A stretch of DNA of 64,000 nt from Caldicellulosiruptor acetigenus (lineage in GTDB: Bacteria > Bacillota > Thermoanaerobacteria > Caldicellulosiruptorales > Caldicellulosiruptoraceae), in the NCBI RefSeq assembly GCF_026914305.1, contig NZ_CP113866.1, positions 2,235,501 to 2,299,500 of the forward strand, in the 5' to 3' direction. Positions within the stretch are counted from its first letter, which is position 1, and each line of letters starts with the position of its first letter. Made by a program: the position numbers and the translations under genes. The notes beneath the pieces were generated by a model. That model worked only from the letters and a program-made list of their open reading frames with translations, was not told the origin of the DNA and made no database searches. Positions 753 to 17,125 of the stretch are shown one piece after another.

Positions 753-1357
753 GAAAAAAGATATTACTGGTTCTATTAACTGTTATAGGAATCAATATTA
801 TTGCTGCTGGAGTATTTGTAACTTTTAAAGATGATTTCTTAGTTTTAAAGAACAATAAACCTGTTTTTACAAATGATGAACCGGTTTTAATAGGATTAAA
901 ATTTGGGAGTACAAAGGGAGAATTGATAAAAAAATTGGGAAACCCAAAAAAAATAAAGAGAGAGTGGTGGGGAGCTTATGGTGACTATGTAGAATACTGT
1001 TACTATGATTGGGGTTATGTGTTATTAGTACCGGGCGAAGGTGATAGGTATATAATAAACGTGGAAATTAGTAAAAAAGGAATTGAAGGACCAAGAGGAA
1101 TTGAGGTCGGAGATTGCTATAAAAGGGTGCTGAATAGATTTAGGTATAGTCCTATAAAAATTGATGACAGAGAATTTTTGTACTACCTTGAACAAAAAAC
1201 TGAAGACGGTGTGGTTGATAGATTTGGAAGTGTAGTTTATAACGAAAAAGGAGAAATTGAGAGTATTTATTATAGAGATAGTTCTTACTATTGGATTGAC
1301 TTTGAAATATCAAAAGGCAGAGTGAAGAAAATAGTAGCATATCATCATAATAATTAA
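749..1357 (+). CDS. Small exported membrane-anchored protein coupled to the M23-like gene
   Basis: The 202-residue protein starts at a GTG that overlaps the upstream stop, with no room for an independent leader. Residues 5-25 form a hydrophobic segment, so the protein is probably exported and anchored. The rest contains two similar stretches, IGLKFGSTKGELIKKLGNP and IEVGDCYKRVLNRF, resembling the repeated G-x-T/S-x-x-x-L/V-x-x-x-F/LG pattern of SmpA/BamE-like or DUF-type extracytoplasmic domains. I do not recognise a family with certainty. Position and coupling suggest it acts with the M23-like protein, for example as inhibitor or immunity partner; that is inference. Confidence 0.6.
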   Translation: MRKKILLVLLTVIGINIIAAGVFVTFKDDFLVLKNNKPVFTNDEPVLIGLKFGSTKGELIKKLGNPKKIKREWWGAYGDYVEYCYYDWGYVLLVPGEGDRYIINVEISKKGIEGPRGIEVGDCYKRVLNRFRYSPIKIDDREFLYYLEQKTEDGVVDRFGSVVYNEKGEIESIYYRDSSYYWIDFEISKGRVKKIVAYHHNN

Positions 1358-1482
1358 CGGTATACTTTAAGTTAAATTTAAAAGTTGTTAATTAATTGTT
1401 TATTGTTTAACTTAGCTAATATTAGGAAAAATATATTACAAAAATACAGAAAATTTAAAATAGAAAACCACGCGAAAGCTTC

Positions 1483-1768
1483 ATTAGTGGATTTGATACC
1501 AACTACCTGGAAGAACTTAAGGAATACGTAAAGAAGGTAGTCAAAAACCCATTTGTTAGGAATAGACAGCTCAAAGAGATAAATTGGACAATAAAGATTT
1601 TACAAGGCCCTAGGAGTAAGCCAAGGAGGTAAATATCAATATGCAACTGACATTGCGTGGGCTGCAAATTGAGTTTACTCTATTAAAAATATATTTGAAA
1701 GCTTCCCAAACGCTAAGCTAAGGTTTGATATCCCTGTTTATAAGGAGAAGAAAAAAGATGAAAAGTAA
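1483..1768 (+). pseudogene. 3' remnant of a glucosaminidase-like cell-wall hydrolase
   Basis: Coding sequence is visible in two frames. NYLEELKEYVKKVVKN runs in one frame from 1483, and after a frameshift near 1595 it continues in another as YKALGVSQGGKYQYATDIAW, then an in-frame TGA, then VYSIKNIFESFPN up to TAA at 1768. The YATDxxWAxxVxxI pattern resembles the C-terminal part of GH73 N-acetylglucosaminidases, but only this tail is left and the assignment is tentative. The ORF ends 11 bases inside the following decayed gene, the same overlap arrangement as the pair upstream. Confidence 0.45.
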
Positions 1769-2343
1769 AAAATTGCTTATATGCATAATAAGCGCATTGT
1801 GTTTGGTTGGAATAATTATTGTAGTTATTTTAGCAAAAAAAAGAAACTTTCCTTGTAAAACCCTTAAACGATAGGGACTTCGCTGTAACTGATGGAATTG
1901 GCTATGTTTATCTTGACTGCCCTGCTGATAAGTTTCTAAAACAATTTAAGGAAAAAGAAATCAATTTTTTTTCGTGCAAGTGATATATTTATTCAGGATA
2001 AAGGAGTAATTTACAAATATTTTTATCACGAATATAAAGATTTAATTGTTTATACTTCGAATGTATTTTATAATAAAAAGGGCTTGGACTTTGATAATTA
2101 CAGAATTGCCTAAATTAATGTAAAGACCTCAAAATTCTATACACTAAGAAAAATCAGAATTGGTTCTTCTTCGGAAGAGGTAATTAAAAAGTATGGGAAA
2201 AATGTACTTATGATAAAAAACATAACTTTTACAGATATAGTTATAACGAAAAGAATATAGAATTTGGAATTGATAATAATGGCAAAGTTAAGGAGATTAT
2301 TATATTTATCAATTCTTATTACGCACCTAACTCTAAAAGATAA
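1758..2343 (+). pseudogene. Decayed membrane-anchored partner protein
   Basis: It begins at ATG 1758 with a hydrophobic N-terminus (LLICIISALCLVGIIIVVIL), similar in plan to the 202-residue protein at 749. Frameshifts near 1855, 1970 and 2210 and an in-frame TAA near 2121 break it. Recognisable pieces include FAVTDGIGYVYLDCPADKF, KGVIYKYFYHEYKDL, IRIGSSSEEVIKKYG and NIEFGIDNNGKVKEIIIF. The IGSSSEEVIKKYG segment parallels the G-S-T-K-G-E-L-I-K-K-L-G motif of the 749 protein, supporting kinship. It is presumably the dead partner of the hydrolase remnant just upstream. Confidence 0.55.
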
Positions 2344-2424
2344 GAATTGACATTTACAATATATTAGTGTATTATAATTCCGTGATAAACAAAAAACAAG
2401 TGAAAATAGGGGGTTATGAGGAAA

Positions 2425-3294
2425 ATGAAAAGCTCTGTATTAACTTCTAACAATCTTAATTTAACTCTTAAAAATAACTCTTATCTTCAAAACCTGTCAG
2501 CCCAAAAAAGTACAGCAGAGCAAGTTTCAAAAAGCTATTTCTCACCTTCAAAACAAAACACAGCCCAAAACAACTCTAAAATTTCACCTGCCTATGTCTA
2601 TGAAAAAGGTTCTTCTGCTAATGAGTTGTACGGTAAAATAGTCTATGAAAGACCTAGTTCAAATTCTGAATCGTCTACAACAAAGATAAATGCTGTTTAT
2701 GAAAGCCAAAATACTTCAACTAAAATAAAAAGATTAGAACCAAGCAAAGCATTATTTGAATTTGTTAAATCCTATGAAGGATATTCCTCAATCGCCTATA
2801 GAGACAAAGACGGAGTTTGGACTATTGGAATTGGACATGTACTGAGAGGCAAAGAATTGGAGGAATATGTTGGTCTTAAAACTAATAGTCCCAAGAAAGC
2901 AATAACAGAAGAAAAAGCATATGAGTTTTTCAAAAGCGATATCAAAAATGCAACGGATGCAGTAAATAAATTTATGGAAAATAACAAAATTCAACTTCCA
3001 CAAAATCAATTTGATGCTTTAGTAAGTTTTACATTCAATGTTGGTCCAGCGTGGACAACTGATGAAAAATCTAAAATTCAAGCTGATATAGTCAAGGCTA
3101 TAAAAAGTGGTATTGATATTAAATTAGAAAAAGAACTTAGAGATGATTTTCTTGCTTGGTCCAAAGCTCAGGGAAAAGTATTAGAAGGATTACAACGTCG
3201 CAGATACGATGAATGGGAAATGTTTGTAAAAGGAGACTACAAAGTTACAGATATAAATACTTGGAAAAAGATAAAAAAAGAAATGGGTCTTTAG
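2425..3294 (+). CDS. GH24 (T4-type) lysozyme with low-complexity leader
   Basis: Muramidase cleaving the MurNAc-GlcNAc bond of peptidoglycan. Residues 1-105 are Ser/Asn/Lys/Thr-rich and lack a classical signal peptide; residues 64-80 repeat the leader motif of the M23-like protein at the left edge. Residues 108-289 form a T4-lysozyme-like domain. E118, D127 and T133 have exactly the 9- and 6-residue spacing of the T4 E11-D20-T26 triad, and LPQNQFDALVSFTFNVG is the conserved family core. ATG 2425 is preferred over ATG 2416 because the latter lies only two bases after the AGGGGG ribosome site. It could be a prophage endolysin remnant, but no other lysis gene adjoins it and the shared leader argues for a host or effector role. 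Confidence 0.85.
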   Translation: MKSSVLTSNNLNLTLKNNSYLQNLSAQKSTAEQVSKSYFSPSKQNTAQNNSKISPAYVYEKGSSANELYGKIVYERPSSNSESSTTKINAVYESQNTSTKIKRLEPSKALFEFVKSYEGYSSIAYRDKDGVWTIGIGHVLRGKELEEYVGLKTNSPKKAITEEKAYEFFKSDIKNATDAVNKFMENNKIQLPQNQFDALVSFTFNVGPAWTTDEKSKIQADIVKAIKSGIDIKLEKELRDDFLAWSKAQGKVLEGLQRRRYDEWEMFVKGDYKVTDINTWKKIKKEMGL

Positions 3295-3365
3295 AAAATT
3301 TTCATCTCTAAAATTGTTGTATCACATACTATATTTAAGCTAAACAAATTAGTGAGGTGAAATCT

Positions 3366-8272: not shown

Positions 8273-8988
8273 AAATAAATCTTAGCTTATGATAGATTAT
8301 GAGAAAATAGATTGACTACATTAGGGCTGCTATGTTTATGAAATAATAGGCAGTCCCTATTTTTATGATTTATTTTATTAAAATAAACTTTCGGGGTATA
8401 AATACTTTTGAGAACAAAAATTTTATAAAAGAAGAGACCTTGTGATGAGCAAAAAGATTGAGAACATATTAAGGTTTGGAATGAAGATGGAGAAAAATGC
8501 GCAAGACTTTTATTCGTTCTATGCAAACAGCTTGCAAGATGAAGGGCTAAAAAAACTTTTTGAAGAGTTTGTAAAGATTGAGCAGGAACATTACAAGTAT
8601 CTTGAGAATATTCTTAAAAGTCTGGGTAGCCAAGAACCACCAATATCAATCTCATGGGTTGTAGACGACCATAACAAAATGGTAGACCCTCATATACTTG
8701 CCGAAAACTCAAAAATATTGGAGACAGATTTTTCAGACCTTACAATATTGCGGCTTGCATATCTGATTGAAAGCGACTTTGCCGCATTTTACAAACAAGC
8801 TGCTGAAAAGGTTGAAGATAGCAATGTAAAAGGTTTGCTTCTACATCTTGCAAAGTGGGAAGAGGAACATGAGAAGTTCTTCAAAGATAGATACCACAGT
8901 CTTATGAAAAAGGAATGGGAAGAACTTGACCTGTTCTAAAAAAGACCTATAAAAAGTAGCAAGGGAGCAGTCTGTATTCTATTTTGTT
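8150..8988 (+). repeat. Duplicated segment, copy 1 (with 17230-18080)
   Basis: The end of the membrane protein gene, its 3' region and the complete ferritin-like gene recur almost base for base at 17230-18080. Differences are a handful of substitutions and a small indel before the ferritin-like gene (TATTTTATTAAAATAAAC against TATTTTAAAGTTTTTAAAAT). The match ends at 8988, exactly where the IS256-family fragment begins. Confidence 0.9.
8445..8939 (+). CDS. Ferritin-like di-iron protein (rubrerythrin type), copy 1
   Basis: The 164-residue four-helix protein carries the expected carboxylate/histidine motifs: MEKNAQDFY, KIEQEHYKYLE, IESDFAAFYKQ and KWEEEHEKFFKD. It lacks the C-terminal rubredoxin domain of full rubrerythrin. 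Such proteins reduce peroxide or handle iron in anaerobes; the precise activity is not visible here. ATG 8445 is taken as start, though GTG 8442 is also possible. The protein is identical to the copy at 17536. Its ribosome site (AGAAGAG) is weaker than that of copy 2 (AGGAGAG), and its terminator has lost its 3' arm to the adjoining insertion sequence. Confidence 0.85.
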   Translation: MSKKIENILRFGMKMEKNAQDFYSFYANSLQDEGLKKLFEEFVKIEQEHYKYLENILKSLGSQEPPISISWVVDDHNKMVDPHILAENSKILETDFSDLTILRLAYLIESDFAAFYKQAAEKVEDSNVKGLLLHLAKWEEEHEKFFKDRYHSLMKKEWEELDLF

Positions 8989-9773
8989 GGGTCTGTAAAT
9001 AATTTTGTGTATTTAAATTAAACCAACCTTCTTGGTAAGAAATCATTCAAGGATAAGCTTGTCTACCTTCTATTTTTTAGTATTACCATTTTAAAAATTT
9101 TTATGCATAAATTTTTAAAATCCTGGACAAAATTTAATACTGGGTTATAATACTCTGTTTTTTATTTGCTGTTTTAAACTGCTTCCATGGAAGCAGTTTA
9201 AAATACGAACTGGTGATTGCTATCTACTTTATATACTCTCTCAAACGGTCAGGATACATTATCAAAAGCTGATTTAATATTATATCCCAATTTCTGTACC
9301 TCTGTGTCCACTTTCTTACAACATTTTTTGTTGCAAGATAAAGCATCTTCTCTAATGCTATATCATTTGGAAACACTGATTTTGTCTTTGTCACTTTCCT
9401 AAACTGTCTGTGAATTCCTTCTATGATGTTTGTGGTATAAATTATCTTCCTTATTCTGCGGGGAAACTTAAAAAACGATGTTAGTAGCTCCCAGTTGTTT
9501 TCCCAGCTTCTGAACGCATAAGGATACTGTTTCCCACACTTTTCTCTTACCTGATAAAAATTCTCCAGCGCTTCTTCTTCATTAGTTGCCTGATACACTT
9601 TCTTAAAATCCTTTGAAAATTCTTTTATATGCTTGTATGAAACATACTTGAATTAATTTCTTAGTTGATGAATAATACACCTTTGAACATCGCTTTTAGG
9701 GAACACTGCTTCTATTGCTTCCTTTAAACCTGTCAAGCCGTCAACACAAAATAGTAGTACCTCTTCTACTCCT
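8989..9773 (-). mobile_element. Truncated IS256-family element
   Basis: One end begins GGGTCTGTAAATAATTTTGT, identical to the right terminus of the full-length copy at 12947-14498, and the sequence matches that copy in inverted orientation for about 785 bases. It stops in mid-transposase at 9773, where the IS110-family left end starts. The promoter-proximal half is missing on the far side of that element, so an insertion was followed by a deletion. Confidence 0.9.
9224..9770 (-). pseudogene. IS256-family (Mutator) transposase, 3' half
   Basis: The frame from 9598 to 9224 encodes the C-terminal third with IYTTNIIEGIHRQFRKVTKT, diagnostic of IS256/MULE transposases. Upstream coding continues through an in-frame TAA near 9654 into VLLFCVDGLTGLKEAIEA, where the IS110 element cuts it. 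The same TAA is present in the full-length copy. Only Asp/Glu at MYPDRL versus MYPERL separates the two over the last 124 residues. Confidence 0.9.
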
Positions 9774-9972
9774 TGTATAATTATTTTCGTAATACACAAC
9801 AAAAAAATTCTAATAAAATAACAACCAAAGTTTCGGTTAACATAAGATTTTAAGTCTCATCATTAAAATAACATTTCCAATCATTCCTCTTTGAGAGGAA
9901 AGCAGCCTAAAATCACTTCCTGCTGCTTGTGGCTTCTCTTCTTCGGCCACACTCTGATTTATCGCTGGCCTC

Positions 9973-10000
9973 TTGCCAGCCTCATTAAATTTGATATAAT
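9973..10000 (+). promoter_or_regulatory. Promoter inside the IS110 left end
   Basis: TTGCCA (9973-9978) and TATAAT (9995-10000) are separated by 16 bases, placing a start near 10007. It would drive the non-coding RNA and possibly the recombinase. It is intact in the solo left end (TATAAT 15053-15058). Confidence 0.7.
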
Positions 10001-10006
10001 TCTTTC

Positions 10007-10234
10007 ATTTGGGCATGGAATTTATCTGTACATTCACTCCTGGGAATGGAAGTCACCTTCCATATACCCGCACAAGAGACTATTATTCCATTCCAGGTAA
10101 GTCTAAACTATTTGGCTGGTTGAGGCCAGCTTAAAACCTAATTAAAGCTGGTTCCTCGTATCACTCGCAAGGTTGTATACTTACCTTGGCTCGGAATGGA
10201 AAACTCATGCCCTAATTCAATTTTAAAATCACTT
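10007..10234 (+). ncRNA. Predicted IS110 bridge RNA
   Basis: IS110-group elements are known to carry, upstream of the recombinase, a structured RNA whose two loops guide target and donor recognition. Here a long hairpin pairs 10039-10051 with 10086-10097 (12 bp, one bulged G) around a 34-base loop. ACTCCT at 10036-10041 equals the target sequence left of the insertion including core CT. ACAAGAG at 10072-10078 is the reverse complement of CTCTTGT, the core plus right flank of the uninterrupted IS256 sequence. Further hairpins are GCTGG/CCAGC (10115-10130) and CAAGGT/ACCTTG (10168-10188). The loop of the last contains TTGTATA, which equals the first bases of the element after the core. GGAATGGAA recurs at 10193 and could compete for the first stem. 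RNA ends are inferred. Confidence 0.6.
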
Positions 10235-10252
10235 GCAAGGAGGTCTTATGCT

Positions 10253-11545
10253 ATGAACTTAAAACCTATTGCCGGGATTGATGTCTCTAAATATTTCAGC
10301 GAAATGGTGGTTATCTCTCCTGCAAATGAAATACTTTCACGCTTGACTATCCATCACAATAATCTCTCTGACTTTGATAGGGCTATCGAAATCCTTAAAA
10401 AAGTTGAAGAGGATTTCGCGGCTCGCCCTATCATCGTCATGGAAGCCACAGGGCATTACCACAAAATCCTCTCCCGCTTCTTTACTTCTAATGGCTGGGA
10501 TGTTGCAATTATCAATCCCATCCAATCTAATTCTATCAAAAATGCGGGAGTTAGAAAAGTAAAAAATGATAAAATTGATGCCCTGTGGATTGCCTTAACC
10601 TTCAGGCTTACTAACTCTGCTATAGCACAACCTTCATCTGAAACCCTCGATTGCTTGAAAAACCTATGCCGTCAGTACTACAACCTCAGCGATGAGTTGA
10701 CCTCTTACAAATATAGACTTACTTCTGTCGTCGACCAAATTATGCTCAATTTCAAAGAGGTCTTCCCTGACATTTGCTCTAAAACATCTTTGGCTATACT
10801 TGAAAACTACCCTACTCCAAACGATATCCTAAGCGCTGACAGCGAAAAACTTATTTCCATCATTCAGCAAACTTCTAAAAAAAGCTACCAATGGGCTAAA
10901 GAAAAATATGAACTACTTATCGCAAAAGCTAAACAGTTCAAACCTTTTTCTATCTCCAACTTGGCAAATGTTACTATGCTTAAAGTCTACATTAACATAG
11001 TCTTGACTTTGCAACAAAACATCAATAAAATCTCTGAATCCATAAATCAGCTTGTTCAGCAGTCTTCACAGACTCAGCCTTCAATATCCGAAAATATTAA
11101 CCTTCTTCAGTCTATCCCTGGCATAGGTTTTCTCACTGCTGCAACTATCCTTGCTGAAATAGGTGACTTCGAAAAATTTTCAAAACCTAATAAACTTGTT
11201 GCCTTCTTTGGTATTGATCCTTCCGTAAATCAGTCTGGGCAATTTGTTGGCACAAAAAACAAAATGTCTAAACGTGGCTCTAAAATCTTGCGAAGAATCT
11301 TATTTACAATTGCTCTTGCAAATATCAGAACTAAAAGAAACTCTGAGCCTTGTAATCCTGTGTTATTGGAATACTATCAGAAAAAGTGTCAACAAAAGCC
11401 CAAAAAAGTTGCATTAGGCGCTGTCATGAGAAAGCTCATATGCATTATCTTTGCTGTCATGCGCGATAGAAAACCTTTTGAACTTAGAACTCCTGAAAAA
11501 CATATTCAAAAATGTTTTAACAAGACTGCTGTTTATTGTGTATAA
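10253..11545 (+). CDS. IS110-family DEDD recombinase/transposase
   Basis: The 430-residue enzyme starts at ATG 10253 after AAGGAGG; an upstream in-frame ATG at 10196 has no ribosome site and lies in the RNA region. The N-terminal RuvC-like DEDD domain shows IAGIDVSK (first Asp), IIVMEATGHYH (Glu) and KNDKIDALWIA (Asp pair). The C-terminal IS116/IS110/IS902 domain shows LLQSIPGIGFLTAATILAEI and MSKRGSKILRRILFTIA, including the catalytic-serine region of the family. Its length matches active members, and no frameshift or internal stop is present, so the element may be competent. Confidence 0.93.
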   Translation: MNLKPIAGIDVSKYFSEMVVISPANEILSRLTIHHNNLSDFDRAIEILKKVEEDFAARPIIVMEATGHYHKILSRFFTSNGWDVAIINPIQSNSIKNAGVRKVKNDKIDALWIALTFRLTNSAIAQPSSETLDCLKNLCRQYYNLSDELTSYKYRLTSVVDQIMLNFKEVFPDICSKTSLAILENYPTPNDILSADSEKLISIIQQTSKKSYQWAKEKYELLIAKAKQFKPFSISNLANVTMLKVYINIVLTLQQNINKISESINQLVQQSSQTQPSISENINLLQSIPGIGFLTAATILAEIGDFEKFSKPNKLVAFFGIDPSVNQSGQFVGTKNKMSKRGSKILRRILFTIALANIRTKRNSEPCNPVLLEYYQKKCQQKPKKVALGAVMRKLICIIFAVMRDRKPFELRTPEKHIQKCFNKTAVYCV

Positions 11546-11754
11546 ATAATTGTTTTATTAATGAAACATTGGTTAACCATAATATGTGCCCAGCCTCCAT
11601 ATGTTATGTCAACCTCTAATGGATGGCTTACCGTCTTATGCCCTTTTAAAAGAATTTTCTACCATAAAATGTTATCAAAAATTTTTTAAAAAACTCTTGA
11701 CTTTAATTAGCTGGTCTTAACTTATTTTATAAACTAACTATAGACTAAAACATA

Positions 11755-12946: not shown

Positions 12947-14498
12947 GATACTATAAATAATTTTGTGTAAAGTATAATAGCCTCCTTCTTGGTAAGAATC
13001 AGAATATAAACAAAAATAACCAAGTGGGAGGCTTTTATTATGGAAAATGTTTTATCAAAAGAACAATTACTCGAATTCATAAGAAAAAATAACATCCAGA
13101 GTGTAAGCGACATTTATGAAAGCTTGAAGGATCTATTCAAAGACTTACTACAAAGCTTTTTAGAAGCAGAAATTGAAGAAAGTTTAGGTTACGAAAAATA
13201 TGATGGCAAAAACAAGCAGACAACAAATTCCTGAAATGGTTATAGTCAAAAGACTGTCAAAACTAAGTTTGGTGAAATGGAACTTGATATTCCAAGGGAT
13301 AGAGAAGGTAAATTTGAACCGAAGATAATTCCTAAGTATAAAAGAGACATTTCAGAGATTGAAGACAAAATTATAGCCCTGTATTCAAGAGGAATGACAA
13401 CACGAGACATTCATGAGCAAATTAAAGATATTTATGGTATTGAAATATCTAGCGAAATGGTTAGCAAAATTACAGAGAAAATTATTCCTGAGATAAGAGA
13501 ATGGCAAAATAGACCATTGGAAAAAATATATCCATTTATTTTCATGGACGCAATTCATTACAAGATAAAGGATGAGGGTAAAATTGTAAATAAAGCTGCC
13601 TATGTTGTTTTGGGTATTAACATTGAAGGATATAAGGATGTTTTAGGGATATGGATTGGAGAGAGTGAAAGCTCTAAATTCTGGTTGGGTGTTTTGAATG
13701 ACTTGAAAACAAGAGGAGTAGAAGAGGTACTACTGTTTTGTGTTGACGGCTTGACAGGTTTAAAGGAAGCAATAGAAGCAGTGTTCCCTAAAAGCGATGT
13801 TCAAAGGTGTATTATTCATCAACTAAGAAATTAATTCAAGTATGTTTCATACAAGCATATAAAAGAATTTTCAAAGGATTTTAAGAAAGTGTATCAGGCA
13901 ACTAATGAAGAAGAAGCGCTGGAGAATTTTTATCAGGTAAGAGAAAAGTGTGGGAAACAGTATCCTTATGCGTTCAGAAGCTGGGAAAACAACTGGGAGC
14001 TACTAACATCGTTTTTTAAGTTTCCCCGCAGAATAAGGAAGATAATTTATACCACAAACATCATAGAAGGAATTCACAGACAGTTTAGGAAAGTGACAAA
14101 GACAAAATCAGTGTTTCCAAATGATATAGCATTAGAGAAGATGCTTTATCTTGCGACAAAAAATGTTGTAAGAAAGTGGACACAGAGGTACAGAAATTGG
14201 GATATAATATTAAATCAGCTTTTGATAATGTATCCTGAGCGTTTGAGAGAGTATATAAAGTAGATAGCGATTACCAGTTCGCATTTTAAACTGCTTCCAT
14301 GGAAGCAGTTTAAAACAACAAATAAAAAACAGAGTATTATAACCCAGTATTAAATTTTGTCCAGGATTTTAAAAATTTATGCATAAAAATTTTTAAAATG
14401 GTAATACTAAAAAATAGAAGGTAGACAAGCTTATCCTTGAATGATTTCTTACCAAGAAGGTTGGTTTAATTTAAATACACAAAATTATTTACAGACCC
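12947..14498 (+). mobile_element. Full-length IS256-family element with 8-bp target duplications
   Basis: Its ends are imperfect inverted repeats (GATACTATAAATAATTTTGTG against GGGTCTGTAAATAATTTTGTG). It is flanked by CATTTTCT at 12939-12946 and again at 14499-14506, the 8-bp duplication typical of IS256. The 1552-bp length fits the family. A palindrome around CTGCTTCCATGGAAGCAG near 14300 lies in the 3' non-coding end. The transposase is interrupted by two stops, so the copy is probably non-autonomous. Confidence 0.93.
13040..14263 (+). pseudogene. IS256-family transposase with two in-frame stops
   Basis: One frame runs from ATG 13040 to TAG/TAA 14263, broken by TGA at 13232-13234 (TTNS-stop-NGYSQ) and TAA at 13832-13834 (QLRN-stop-FKYVS). 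Without the stops it would be about 407 residues, full length for a Mutator-type DDE transposase. The first catalytic Asp lies in PFIFMDAIHYK, the second in LLFCVDGL, and the final Glu in TTNIIEGIHR. Both stops are single-base changes from sense codons. Confidence 0.93.
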
Positions 14499-14831: not shown

Positions 14832-15292
14832 TGTATAATTATTTTCGTAATACACATCAAAAAAATTCTAATAAAATAACAACCAAAGTTTCGGTTAACA
14901 TAAGATTTTAAGTCTCATCATTAAAATAACATTTCCAATCATTCCTCTTTGAGAGGAAAGCAGCCTAAAATCACTTCCTGCTGCTTGTGGCTTCTCTTCT
15001 TCGGCCACACTCTGATTTATCGCTGGCCTCTTGCCAGCCTCATTAAATTTGATATAATTCTTTCATTTGGGCATGGAATTTATCTGTACATTCACTCCTG
15101 GGAATGGAAGTCACCTTCCATATACCCGCACAAGAGACTATTATTCCATTCCAGGTAAGTCTAAACTATTTGGCTGGTTGAGGCCAGCTTAAAACCTAAT
15201 TAAAGCTGGTTCCTCGTATCACTCGCAAGGTTGTATACTTACCTTGGCTCGGAATGGAAAACTCATGCCCTAATTCAATTTTAAAATCACTT
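14832..15292 (+). mobile_element. Solo IS110 left end lacking the recombinase
   Basis: The sequence is almost identical to 9774-10234 and also follows ACTCCT. It stops at AAAATCACTT, just before the ribosome site of the recombinase, where the DDE-type element begins. Promoter and RNA region are intact. Confidence 0.9.
15065..15292 (+). ncRNA. Predicted stand-alone bridge RNA
   Basis: It corresponds base for base to the RNA predicted at 10007-10234, with the same target-like segments (ACTCCT, ACAAGAG) and hairpins, and its own TTGCCA/TATAAT promoter. No recombinase gene follows, so it could act only with the enzyme from the complete element. Confidence 0.5.
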
Positions 15293-17125
15293 AGCCGTTT
15301 GCAAAAAGGGTGATGTTTGCAGGTAATAGGTGGGAAAACAGAAATTAAGTACAAATAAGAAGTAGGAAGACAAAGGAAAAGCTAATACAATTAATACCAA
15401 TACAAACAACAATAGCTAAATCAAATTGATGGAAATTATTAACAGCGTTTAAAAAGACAATACTATCCCATACCCTCTAAAAAAGCTTCTTTAGAGGGTT
15501 TAAGACAGGTAACTATGATATTGAGTAAAGGGTTGAAAGATTTAACCAAGAAAAAACTTAAAGTTTTAAGCAATAAGTTTTTTGAGTTTATTAAGTTTTT
15601 TAATAGTAAGCTTAGAGCAATGAAGCTTAATATTATGAGCGAGAATAAATAGCAAGAGGAAAGACACAGCAGACAAAAGGAAATCAGAAAACAGAGAAAT
15701 ATGGTCGCGTGTTGGCAGGATGTCAGAGCCCATGTAGGATTTAAGGTGAGCGATGGTTTGTTCAATGACGACACGTTTTTTGTAGAGGTTTAAGAATTTT
15801 TGAGAGTTTCTGTTGATGCCAGGGAAAGAACGAAGGTTATCAGGGTATGTATAAAACATTCTGCCTGATTTAGAGGAAGTACAGGGCTGAGGGCAAGAGC
15901 AGACACGTTTGCCATCTTTGTATGAAGACAAAGGGCAGACCCATTTAAAACGCTCTGAACGATTTTTACCCTGGCAAATGCCTTCTGGTTTAAAAGGCAG
16001 ATTGAATTTTTGACATATGGGGATACCATCTTCTGAGATAATGATATTGGGGTCAGAGGTAGTAGAGTTTTTGTTAGCTCTTTTGTTTAGAGGGATAACG
16101 ATTTTAGAGAAATTGAAAGAGTTTTTTAAAGTGGAATAAATGTTAGCAGAATCCAAGGCACTATCAGCGCTAAAAGTAGAGAAGTTATTAGGGATGTATG
16201 AAAAAAGTTTTTCAAGGCAAGGTAGCAAAGCTTTTGAATCAGAGACAGCTTTATCTTCAATAGGGTCAGAGTTTGATGAATCTATATTGAACAGAGGATG
16301 GATAGCCAGAGGAAGACCGAGAGCATTTGTAATGACAGCGAATTTGAGTGCATAACAAAAATGACCGTTTATGAACATAAGGCGGATATTAGAATTAGCG
16401 GCGGATGTTTTGGACAAAGAAGAATAAACAAGAGAGTACACCTGGTTAGTTTCGAGGTCAGGGTTAGCCTTAGAAGTTTTACGCAGTAGAGATTGAAAGA
16501 ATTTAGGGTTATTTTCCCGGACTTTAGGTTCAAGGCCTGTAGTATCGAATATTAGGGTAGAAGCTAAATCTGGGCAATGCTCAAAAGCTATGTTATGAGC
16601 GAAAAGAGCGATGTTATTGAACAATTTTTCGATTTCAAGTGCAAAGAGTTTTCTAAACCTTGAGAAGGTAGAAATAGAGGGCACATTTTCAAAGTTGCAG
16701 AAGGTGCGGAGTTCGTATGATTTAAATAGAACAGCACGAGGCTGGGTGATAGTATTAAGTTTGAGGATTTTTTGGATGAAGAAAGCGCAGAGCATGGATT
16801 CTAAAGAGAAACTTCTGTGTTTGCCGAAATATTTGTAGTAGGCTTTGTAGAATGAGTCAGGGATGAATTGAGACAGGTCGATGAATTTATTGAACAAGCC
16901 CAAAAGGCTTTCTGGCGAATAAAGAGCCGAGGCCTTTATATGGGAGTGAAGTTCCAAAAAGGAAAGTTGTTTAGGTTTGTTTTTGAACATTTTAGGACCC
17001 TCCTCACAGTAACATATTTGTTTTATATACTCATATTTTACTACAACTATGAGGAGGGTGACCAGACTTTTTTGAATCTTTCTAAAGCTTAATAACGCTC
17101 ATATTGAGCGTTTCTGCAAAAAGCT
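15293..17125 (-). mobile_element. DDE-transposase insertion sequence, 1.83 kb
   Basis: The left end AGCCGTTTGCAAAAA and the right end (read inward AGCTTTTTGCAGAAA) are imperfect terminal inverted repeats. A second, perfect 10-bp inverted repeat, ACCCTCCTCA (16997-17006) with TGAGGAGGGT (17050-17059), lies upstream of the transposase and may bind it or regulate it. No clear target duplication is present, so one flank may be rearranged. The interval 15293-15565 is otherwise non-coding. Confidence 0.75.
15566..16990 (-). CDS. DDE transposase (IS4/IS1182-like superfamily)
   Basis: The 474-residue protein has an N-terminal region of the DUF772 kind (SLESMLCAFFIQKILKL), then a DDE domain. TLIFDTTGLEPKVRENNP holds the first Asp, STFSADSALDSANIYSTL the second, and KKRVVIEQTIAHLKSY the Glu of the YREK-like signature. 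Cys-rich residues around CPLSSYKDGKRVCSCPQPC may bind a metal. The frame is intact, so this copy may be active. Exact subgroup not assigned. Confidence 0.85.
   Translation of the reverse strand: MFKNKPKQLSFLELHSHIKASALYSPESLLGLFNKFIDLSQFIPDSFYKAYYKYFGKHRSFSLESMLCAFFIQKILKLNTITQPRAVLFKSYELRTFCNFENVPSISTFSRFRKLFALEIEKLFNNIALFAHNIAFEHCPDLASTLIFDTTGLEPKVRENNPKFFQSLLRKTSKANPDLETNQVYSLVYSSLSKTSAANSNIRLMFINGHFCYALKFAVITNALGLPLAIHPLFNIDSSNSDPIEDKAVSDSKALLPCLEKLFSYIPNNFSTFSADSALDSANIYSTLKNSFNFSKIVIPLNKRANKNSTTSDPNIIISEDGIPICQKFNLPFKPEGICQGKNRSERFKWVCPLSSYKDGKRVCSCPQPCTSSKSGRMFYTYPDNLRSFPGINRNSQKFLNLYKKRVVIEQTIAHLKSYMGSDILPTRDHISLFSDFLLSAVSFLLLFILAHNIKLHCSKLTIKKLNKLKKLIA

Follow-up and report, generated by a model that had tools for sequence, protein, structure and literature searches.

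Bridge RNAs, described recently as a class, guide DNA recombination and are programmable. The papers that describe them, as far as their accessible text goes, are centred mainly on E. coli elements (PMC11208160, PMC11208158). There, the RNA of IS621, 177 nt long, is encoded in the left end of the element with its target loop before its donor loop and works with a DEDD plus serine recombinase at a CT core (PMC11208160, PMC11208158), and it is driven by a circle-junction promoter (PMC11208160). The catalytic residues of IS621 are D11, E60, D102, D105 and S241, and the base pairs listed for it imply that the donor CT-TGTAT is read by A-U, two flipped-out bases and G-C-A-A-G (PMC11208158). ISEc21 and the seekRNA elements of the IS1111 group are likewise RNA-guided DEDD recombinases with a target-setting non-coding region, the RNA of IS1111 lying downstream of the gene and that of ISEc21 upstream in the description given there (PMC11187229).

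The window analysed here, a stretch of 64,000 nucleotides from Caldicellulosiruptor acetigenus whose genome is a single contig of 2.74 Mb, holds at 9774–11715 what is very probably an IS110-group insertion sequence moving by bridge-RNA-guided recombination (Table 1). It resembles IS621 in the left-end RNA, the order of the two loops, the CT core and the DEDD plus serine recombinase (PMC11208160, PMC11208158), in how linker, 7-nt right target guide and handshake position are ordered and spaced, and in a donor CT-TGTAT read by GCAAG (PMC11208158); its RNA stands upstream of the gene, which by description likens it to ISEc21 and sets it apart from IS1111 (PMC11187229). Compared with IS621 as described in the accessible text, the predicted RNA is longer, at about 205 nt, has a long-range closing stem and contains no 5′ stem-loop (PMC11208160, PMC11208158), a promoter-like sequence adjoins it and its targets are different (PMC11208160), and the right donor guide would have five unpaired bases in place of two if the A-U at 10160–10161 pairs alike (PMC11208158). 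Read from sequence comparison, this is an intact IS110-group member with a predicted bridge RNA, for which the original prediction, made from the window's letters, had placed the target guides correctly and the donor guide wrongly.

Table 1 Positions of the element, its predicted RNA parts and a second left end in the window
Feature	Position	Strand	Basis
IS110-group element, first to last base	9774–11715	+	Identity between copies ends at both borders
Left CT core copy	9772–9773	+	Common to genus copies with an uncut left end
Right CT core copy	11716–11717	+	Copy comparison and sequence reading
IS110 transposase, 430 aa, DEDD plus serine domain	10253–11545	+	Domain and family matches (see text)
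TATAAT, putative circle-junction promoter, -10 half	9776–9781	+	Joined ends give TTGACT-17-TATAAT
TTGACT, putative circle-junction promoter, -35 half	11697–11702	+	Sequence reading
Promoter-like TTGCCA (9973–9978)-16 bp-TATAAT (9995–10000)	9973–10000	+	Read directly
Predicted bridge RNA	about 10007–10214	+	Start from promoter, end from closing stem
Closing stem, 5′ arm, pairs with 10206–10212	10011–10017	+	Double changes in 7 of 7 pairs
Left target guide TTCACTCCT, final CT = core	10033–10041	+	Genus site matches; IS621 geometry (PMC11208158)
Target-binding loop, stem-loop	10042–10069	+	Double changes in 7 of 9 pairs
Right target guide ACAAGAG, pairs with CT-CTTGT	10072–10078	+	Site matches in and outside the genus
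AC at putative handshake-guide position, complementary to the GT ending the left donor	10079–10080	+	Analogy to IS621 nucleotides 81–82 (PMC11208158)
Donor-loop basal stem, pairs with 10179–10186	10095–10102	+	Double changes in 7 of 8 pairs
Left donor guide GGCUGGUU, pairs with (A)GCTGGT-C	10114–10121	+	Conserved in most relatives, like the right end TAGCTGGT-CT
Donor-binding loop, stem-loop	10122–10157	+	Covariation; RNAalifold redraws part
Right donor guide GCAAG, pairs with CT-TGT	10167–10171	+	Third base complementary to first element base
Second left end, without transposase or right end; identical bridge RNA at 15067–15272	14832–15292	+	About 100% identity, one base differs near the left end

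Element, transposase and predicted RNA

All 12 genomes searched in the genus match the element, some by fragments only. The 17 genus copies with both ends have the CT core on each side and read CT-TGTATAAT...TTAGCTGGT-CT; the left CT-TGTATAATT and the right TTAATTAGCTGGT-CT are common to all 17, the flanks are mostly unrelated, and a copy in genome G005 splits an IS256 sequence at CT. The first base of the element is 9774, which corrects the original prediction. Comparison among sequences demonstrates the element ends, the predicted fold and the agreement of the putative guides with target and donor. The transposase belongs to the IS110 group, with a DEDD RuvC-like N-terminal domain (PF01548, DEDD_Tnp_IS110, 1.2e-29) and a Transposase_20 domain with serine (PF02371, 1.3e-26), both above the cut-offs, and NCBIfam NF033542 names the product an IS110 family RNA-guided transposase. 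Sequence comparison relates it to the solved ISCro4 and IS621 enzymes; its GIDVSK, MEATG, KNDKIDA and KMSKRG align with ISCro4, and the catalytic residues of IS621 plausibly have counterparts in that alignment. A weak C-terminal likeness to a TIGR-Tas endonuclease (NF052498, E 1.5e-06) scores 28 bits, far under the curated cut-off of 100. The non-coding ends measure 479 bp on the left (9774–10252) and 170 bp on the right (11546–11715), an IS110-group layout in which the longer left end holds the RNA.

The segment 10007–10222 folds at −67.1 kcal/mol (z −4.0 against shuffles), and two internal loops, with a stem-loop between each pair of guides, are seen in both fold and covariation. When 398 phylum genomes were searched with a covariance model built from 11 distinct aligned genus sequences, 14 gave matches, and 9 of these lie outside the genus (G192 by a partial match only); in the class, 17 of 37 genomes matched. 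Within the window's genome the model matches two left ends only. A protein search gave 11 loci, six of which (L116–L121) have a match to the RNA model directly 5′ of the transposase gene. In 22 representatives pairing is kept in 92.2% of cells, compared with 75.3% after shuffling and 49% after sliding by one column, and 30 of 45 pairs have changed on both sides, counts that come from an alignment (A4) fitted to the covariance model and lean towards that model. The genus alone lends thinner support, with both-side changes in 3 of 45 pairs. RNAalifold, run on the same alignment, retains most helices but draws two parts differently, the target loop's basal stem and a portion of the donor stem-loop, which makes these two details tentative; the basal stem (10018–10021 with 10085–10088) is paired in 85% of cells and competes with the alternative pairing. 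Two other alignments were excluded from the conclusions, A1 with two miscut loci and A3, in which 10 of 41 rows are weak opposite-strand matches to a partly palindromic RNA. Rfam 15 has no match above cut-off at 9774–10252, nor at the RNA in nine loci scanned, and a look for a 5′ stem-loop of the IS621 type found predicted hairpins at about 9880–9990, upstream of the predicted RNA start.

That the left end encodes a folded bridge RNA is thus supported, and the original prediction of a probable bridge RNA is borne out by 20 genus insertions, by 19 loci outside the genus together with the diverged genus copy L045, and by covariation: the stem changes whose absence would have spoken against it are present, as double changes in those 30 pairs. 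The single 12-bp stem that it drew between the target guides gives way to 3 + 6 bp with an internal loop.

Direct reading confirms the promoter sequence TTGCCA-16-TATAAT that the original prediction put before the RNA, and the start near 10007 is read from this promoter sequence, which ends 6 bases before it. It is unlikely that the RNA is made only from a circle-junction promoter, as in IS621, and that 9973–10000 is a chance promoter-like match. The joined ends of the window copy do yield TTGACT-17-TATAAT, TTGACT and TAT(A/G)AT occur in 10 of 10 elements displayed with both ends, and such a junction promoter works in IS621 (PMC11208160). Against this, a -10-like box ends 0–11 nt before the RNA model in 17 of the 18 elements displayed, judged by eye and with none clear in L139, despite a distance from element start to RNA that varies from 99 to 257 nt. 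We prefer a promoter of the RNA's own, which may let the integrated element and the orphan left end produce the RNA as well; guides could then be supplied, with no excision needed, by integrated copies and orphan left ends. Left-end-only copies, the one at 14832–15292 and L031 in genome G001, keep promoter and bridge RNA, and both stop just after the RNA, at almost the same position. A transposase-like gene, named by look, lies right after the window's orphan on the minus strand (15566–16990); this gene or a neighbour may have cut off the orphan left end.

The steps of the enzyme, the circle and transcription are taken by analogy from IS621. Transcription of the left end would give an RNA of about 205 nt; its own promoter is the likeliest source, the circle-junction promoter a possible second one. 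The target loop of this RNA would carry TTCACTCCT and ACAAGAG as guides, and its donor loop GGCUGGUU and GCAAG. Held by the recombinase, this RNA would pair with the chromosome around CT and with the joined element ends around CT, and strand exchange at CT would leave one CT at each element end.

Target guides and insertion sites

Guides were placed by the geometry of IS621, the left as the 9 letters that stop just short of the target stem-loop's GGG and the right as the 7 letters after the linker, a rule that yields guides in 21 genus copies. In the window copy the ACTCCT (10036–10041) and ACAAGAG (10072–10078) singled out by the original prediction are both read directly in the sequence. A left register one base earlier was tried and rejected, with a worse fit to the window copy. 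At the handshake position, AC fits the GT of the left donor in the window copy; the CT found there in CT-AGTAT relatives does not fit.

The window copy is flanked on its left by half of an IS256-type element and on its right by resident DNA. For the IS256 target reconstructed in the original prediction, the left half and the sequence CTACTC-CT-CTTGT stand, the latter contained in the full-length IS256 copy at 13709–13721 on the minus strand, whereas the present right flank, CT-TAACTTATT, is not IS256. That full-length element (13040–14263) has a transposase frame broken by stop codons. Among the 7456 CT sites on both strands of the window, 122 fit the left guide at 5/7 or better and 14 fit the right guide at 5/5; one site satisfies both, and it is the IS256 site (5/7 and 5/5). 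The present right flank fits the right guide at 1/5 against 5/5 for IS256, from which we infer that the right IS256 half, with CT-CTTGTTTTC expected right of the element, was lost or moved after insertion. An improbable alternative is that the window copy never inserted in IS256, its right flank being original and the IS256 half having been joined on the left by a later rearrangement. In its favour, the right flank is resident DNA beside an acetyltransferase gene retained in six relatives, and the only other right end in this genome is also without IS256 after it; but no CT site of the window other than that in IS256 fits both guides, and the G005 copy, which has a different guide, lies in the homologous IS256 gene, 2 bases off and flanked by IS256 left and right. 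The six relatives that retain the flanking acetyltransferase gene yielded no empty site. Insertion into IS256 remains our reading, and rearrangement may explain the lost half: a ferritin-like gene (8442–8939) by the acetyltransferase gene is inverted with respect to three relatives (L142, L143, L145), and the region has therefore been rearranged. IS256 and IS110 copies lie close to this inversion. The orphan left end has the left flank TATACTC-CT, which fits the same guide at 5/7.

Scoring of guides against their own sites excluded the core, leaving 7 positions per site on the left and 5 on the right. In the genus, left guides match at 80 of 126 positions (18 sites), compared with 26.5 at random CT sites and 65.9 (sd 3.5) for shuffled guides, the observed value being reached in 0 of 20000 by either control; right guides match at 56 of 95 positions (19 sites), compared with 29.5 at random (reached in 0 of 20000) and 44.1, sd 3.8, when shuffled (28 of 20000). 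A second set comprises 19 loci outside the genus and, for the right side only, the diverged genus copy L045. Its left guides match at 70 of 105 positions at 15 sites, all outside the genus (random 26.4, 0 of 20000; shuffled 58.9, sd 3.2, 10 of 20000), and its right guides at 36 of 70 positions at 14 sites, 13 outside the genus plus L045 (random 20.5, 1 of 20000; shuffled 23.0, sd 4.1, 23 of 20000), a count that still includes 0/5 from L137, whose assigned right end lies in a 16S gene and is false. L045 itself (G005, 752300–757000) is decayed, with 44–59% protein identity in pieces, several stops and an RNA scoring 110 bits. By this comparison, both predicted target guides match their own sites above random CT sites and above shuffled guides, in and outside the genus. 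The left and right target guides thus hold with the polarity originally given to them, supported by 20 genus insertions, the second set and covariation; as for the targets of homologues, the sites on the whole resemble their own guides, but there is no single fixed ACTC-CT-CTTGT target.

The fit varies among sites. The right guide is perfect over the 5 non-core bases in L042, L044 and L022 in the genus and in L128 outside it. Poor genus sites number 3 of 18 on the left (3/7 or less: L020, L029, L044) and 7 of 19 on the right (2/5 or less: L001 in its present state, L040, L020, L021, L037, L041, L043); in the second set they number 4 of 15 on the left (3 or less: L135, L134, L130, L131) and 7 of 14 on the right (2 or less: L127, L129, L130, L133, L134, L139 and the false end of L137). 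Unscored genus rows are L031, the fragment L013, which has no RNA, the missing right side of L002, and the left sides of L040 and L042, where another sequence cuts the element end; unscored partial matches without guides include L003, L004, L008, L023–L026, L032–L035, L038 and L039. Eight fresh loci were also taken, and the rules found both ends in four (L165–L168), which score 4, 6, 5 and 7 of 7 on the left and 4, 4, 2 and 4 of 5 on the right. For L163 and L164 the rules gave the right end only and no right guide, and by eye the guide AATAGAG fits at 5/5 and 3/5; for L169 and L170 the rules found neither end.

These comparisons bear on whether the left end is instead a structured leader that regulates the transposase, with matches due to chance or to a recombinase preferring C-rich sites next to CT. 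The RNA does directly precede the transposase start (10253), and with C-rich targets part of the left match is common to all guides, as the distance between the shuffled (65.9 of 126) and random (26.5) controls indicates. Yet shuffling guides among sites lowers the match in 4 of 4 tests, right guide and right target change together through predicted CGTTT, TTTTC, TTTGT, TTTCT and ATTTC, and GCNAG in the donor loop keeps step with the first base of the element in three states, or in four if a third element of genome G002 is counted, all of which leaves the leader very improbable beside a guide RNA.

The left flank ACAGGAATG-CT of L028, L029 and L031 fits no guide and is the end of another IS110-type element at a CT core. 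Beyond this second element, L028 has ACTCCTC-CT, which fits its own guide at 5/7, and L029, whose transposase gene has several stops, fits at 2/7; the far side was not found for L031. The second element (L077 at 1337–3330, L078, L079 and about ten loci; 442 aa) has a short left and a long right non-coding end and is IS1111-like by layout. Its insertions are at CT, with YGTA or YGTATAAT often following. In G009, G003 and G001 it occupies the left CT core of the window-type element, and G002 has it twice (L086, L089) ahead of CTCGTATAAT, which belongs to a third IS110-type element. It may prefer the -10 box that other IS110 elements carry in their left ends. L019 in G001 is a window-type copy lying inside the right end of the second element, at TACCCAG-CT, and the two kinds of element thus insert into each other.

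Donor guides

For the left donor guide, a first candidate was AGCTGGT at 10146–10152, on the 3′ side of the donor stem-loop; it gave way to 10114–10121, which follows the IS621 order of guide, stem-loop, guide and leaves the stem-loop intact. On the right side, left ends were located in 19 loci outside the genus by a pattern that leaves the first element base free, and in 19 of 19 the third base of GCNAG is the complement of that first base (4 T, 12 A and 3 G); the count omits L136, L137, L138, L163, L164, L169 and L170, whose left ends were placed by eye after a search for CT-TG. Elements beginning CT-AGTAT outside the genus carry GCTAG (GCTAA in L134), those beginning CT-GGTAT carry GCCAG, and the donor base is correct in 4 of the 4 fresh loci L165–L168.

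It is scarcely credible that the TTGTATA loop recognises the first bases of the element, as the original prediction had it. The sequence is present at 10173–10179 and is identical to the start of the element preceded by the core T, but in the predicted fold it forms no hairpin loop and extends from the last part of the donor loop into the basal stem. Its polarity is wrong: it reads as the top strand does, and it is with the top strand that the right donor guide of IS621 pairs (PMC11208158). In CT-AGTAT elements (L127–L134, L165–L168) the RNA keeps GTTGTTT while GCAAG became GCTAG, or GCTAA in L134; in these and in CT-GGTAT relatives it is GC-N-AG that tracks the change of first base, and not the trailing GGTTGT/GGTAGT.

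The third IS110-type element (G002, L086, reverse strand, about 2962 onward) has the left end CT-CGTATAAT; by eye, its RNA region contains ACACCTCCT, followed at some distance by GCGAG, the letters expected from the donor rule. CCAAG replaces GCAAG in five genus types (L019, L020, L022, L028, L031), with the left donor guide also changed in L020, L022 and L028 and the element ends the same as far as present; four of the five have interrupted transposase genes and one has none.

Relatives in predicted ribosome-binding sites

Outside the genus, left flanks read on the opposite strand often show AGGAGG, 5–9 bases and ATG. The left guide TCACCTCCT, found in seven outside-genus loci of the second set and in two fresh loci, recurs unchanged within the 16S tail GGATCACCTCCTTT, as read in L137; a search of the window's own genome for the 16S tail and gene found none. 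A start codon at Shine-Dalgarno distance with at least 40 open codons accompanies 20 of 26 sites outside the genus, 16 of them ATG, compared with 96, 69 of them ATG, among 364 C[CT]C-CT motif-matched sites in the same loci, which include the insertion sites themselves (p 3.5e-7 for a start, 6e-6 for ATG). The test covers one arrangement, a gene to the left on the other strand, and 7 of the 26 left ends (L136, L137, L138, L163, L164, L169, L170) were placed by eye; L165 and L168 share a site sequence and L169 and L170 the same start, and removal of one of each leaves 18 of 24. The window's genus, where left guides are C-rich or TTCACTC, has no enrichment (5 of 18 sites against 31 of 116 motif-matched window sites, p = 0.56). 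A first, pooled test of 33 sites had given 15 with start and reading frame and 11 with ATG, against 10.6% and 4.9% of 13924 CT sites, and p = 0.039 for ATG against 250 motif-matched sites. As judged from these sequences, most relatives outside the genus sit in predicted ribosome-binding sites, and those of the window's genus do not do so to a measurable degree. The occupied gene, to the left on the other strand, would keep its AGGAGG and its start codon.

IS900 of mycobacteria, an IS110-family element, reportedly targets translation initiation signals, going by the title of Doran et al. 1997 as listed among the references of PMC8141618, which would liken it to most of these relatives; the host group is different, and we found no RNA-guide explanation for IS900. 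In the literature on IS110/IS900 and translation starts we found none that ties start-site targeting to a bridge-RNA guide, and the accessible part of PMC7823733 contains nothing on guides.

We judge it probable that this is a Bacillota clade with an anti-Shine-Dalgarno left guide, landing pads in ribosome-binding sites and an RNA with its own promoter, and that the guides have drifted in the window's genus, by which drift the clade would show natural retargeting through guide change. Three features go beyond the routine: a donor rule that holds over three to four states of its base, a promoter-like sequence separate from that of the circle junction, and relatives whose guides are anti-Shine-Dalgarno. 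The donor rule is a simple one, GC-N-AG with N complementary to the first base of the element, and the family offers natural covariation of guide with target and of guide with donor over some 40 insertions. Since the hosts are probably heat-loving, the enzymes may serve where heat-stable recombinases are wanted. The anti-Shine-Dalgarno guides, for their part, would provide a reason at the level of RNA why some IS110 elements enter translation start sites.
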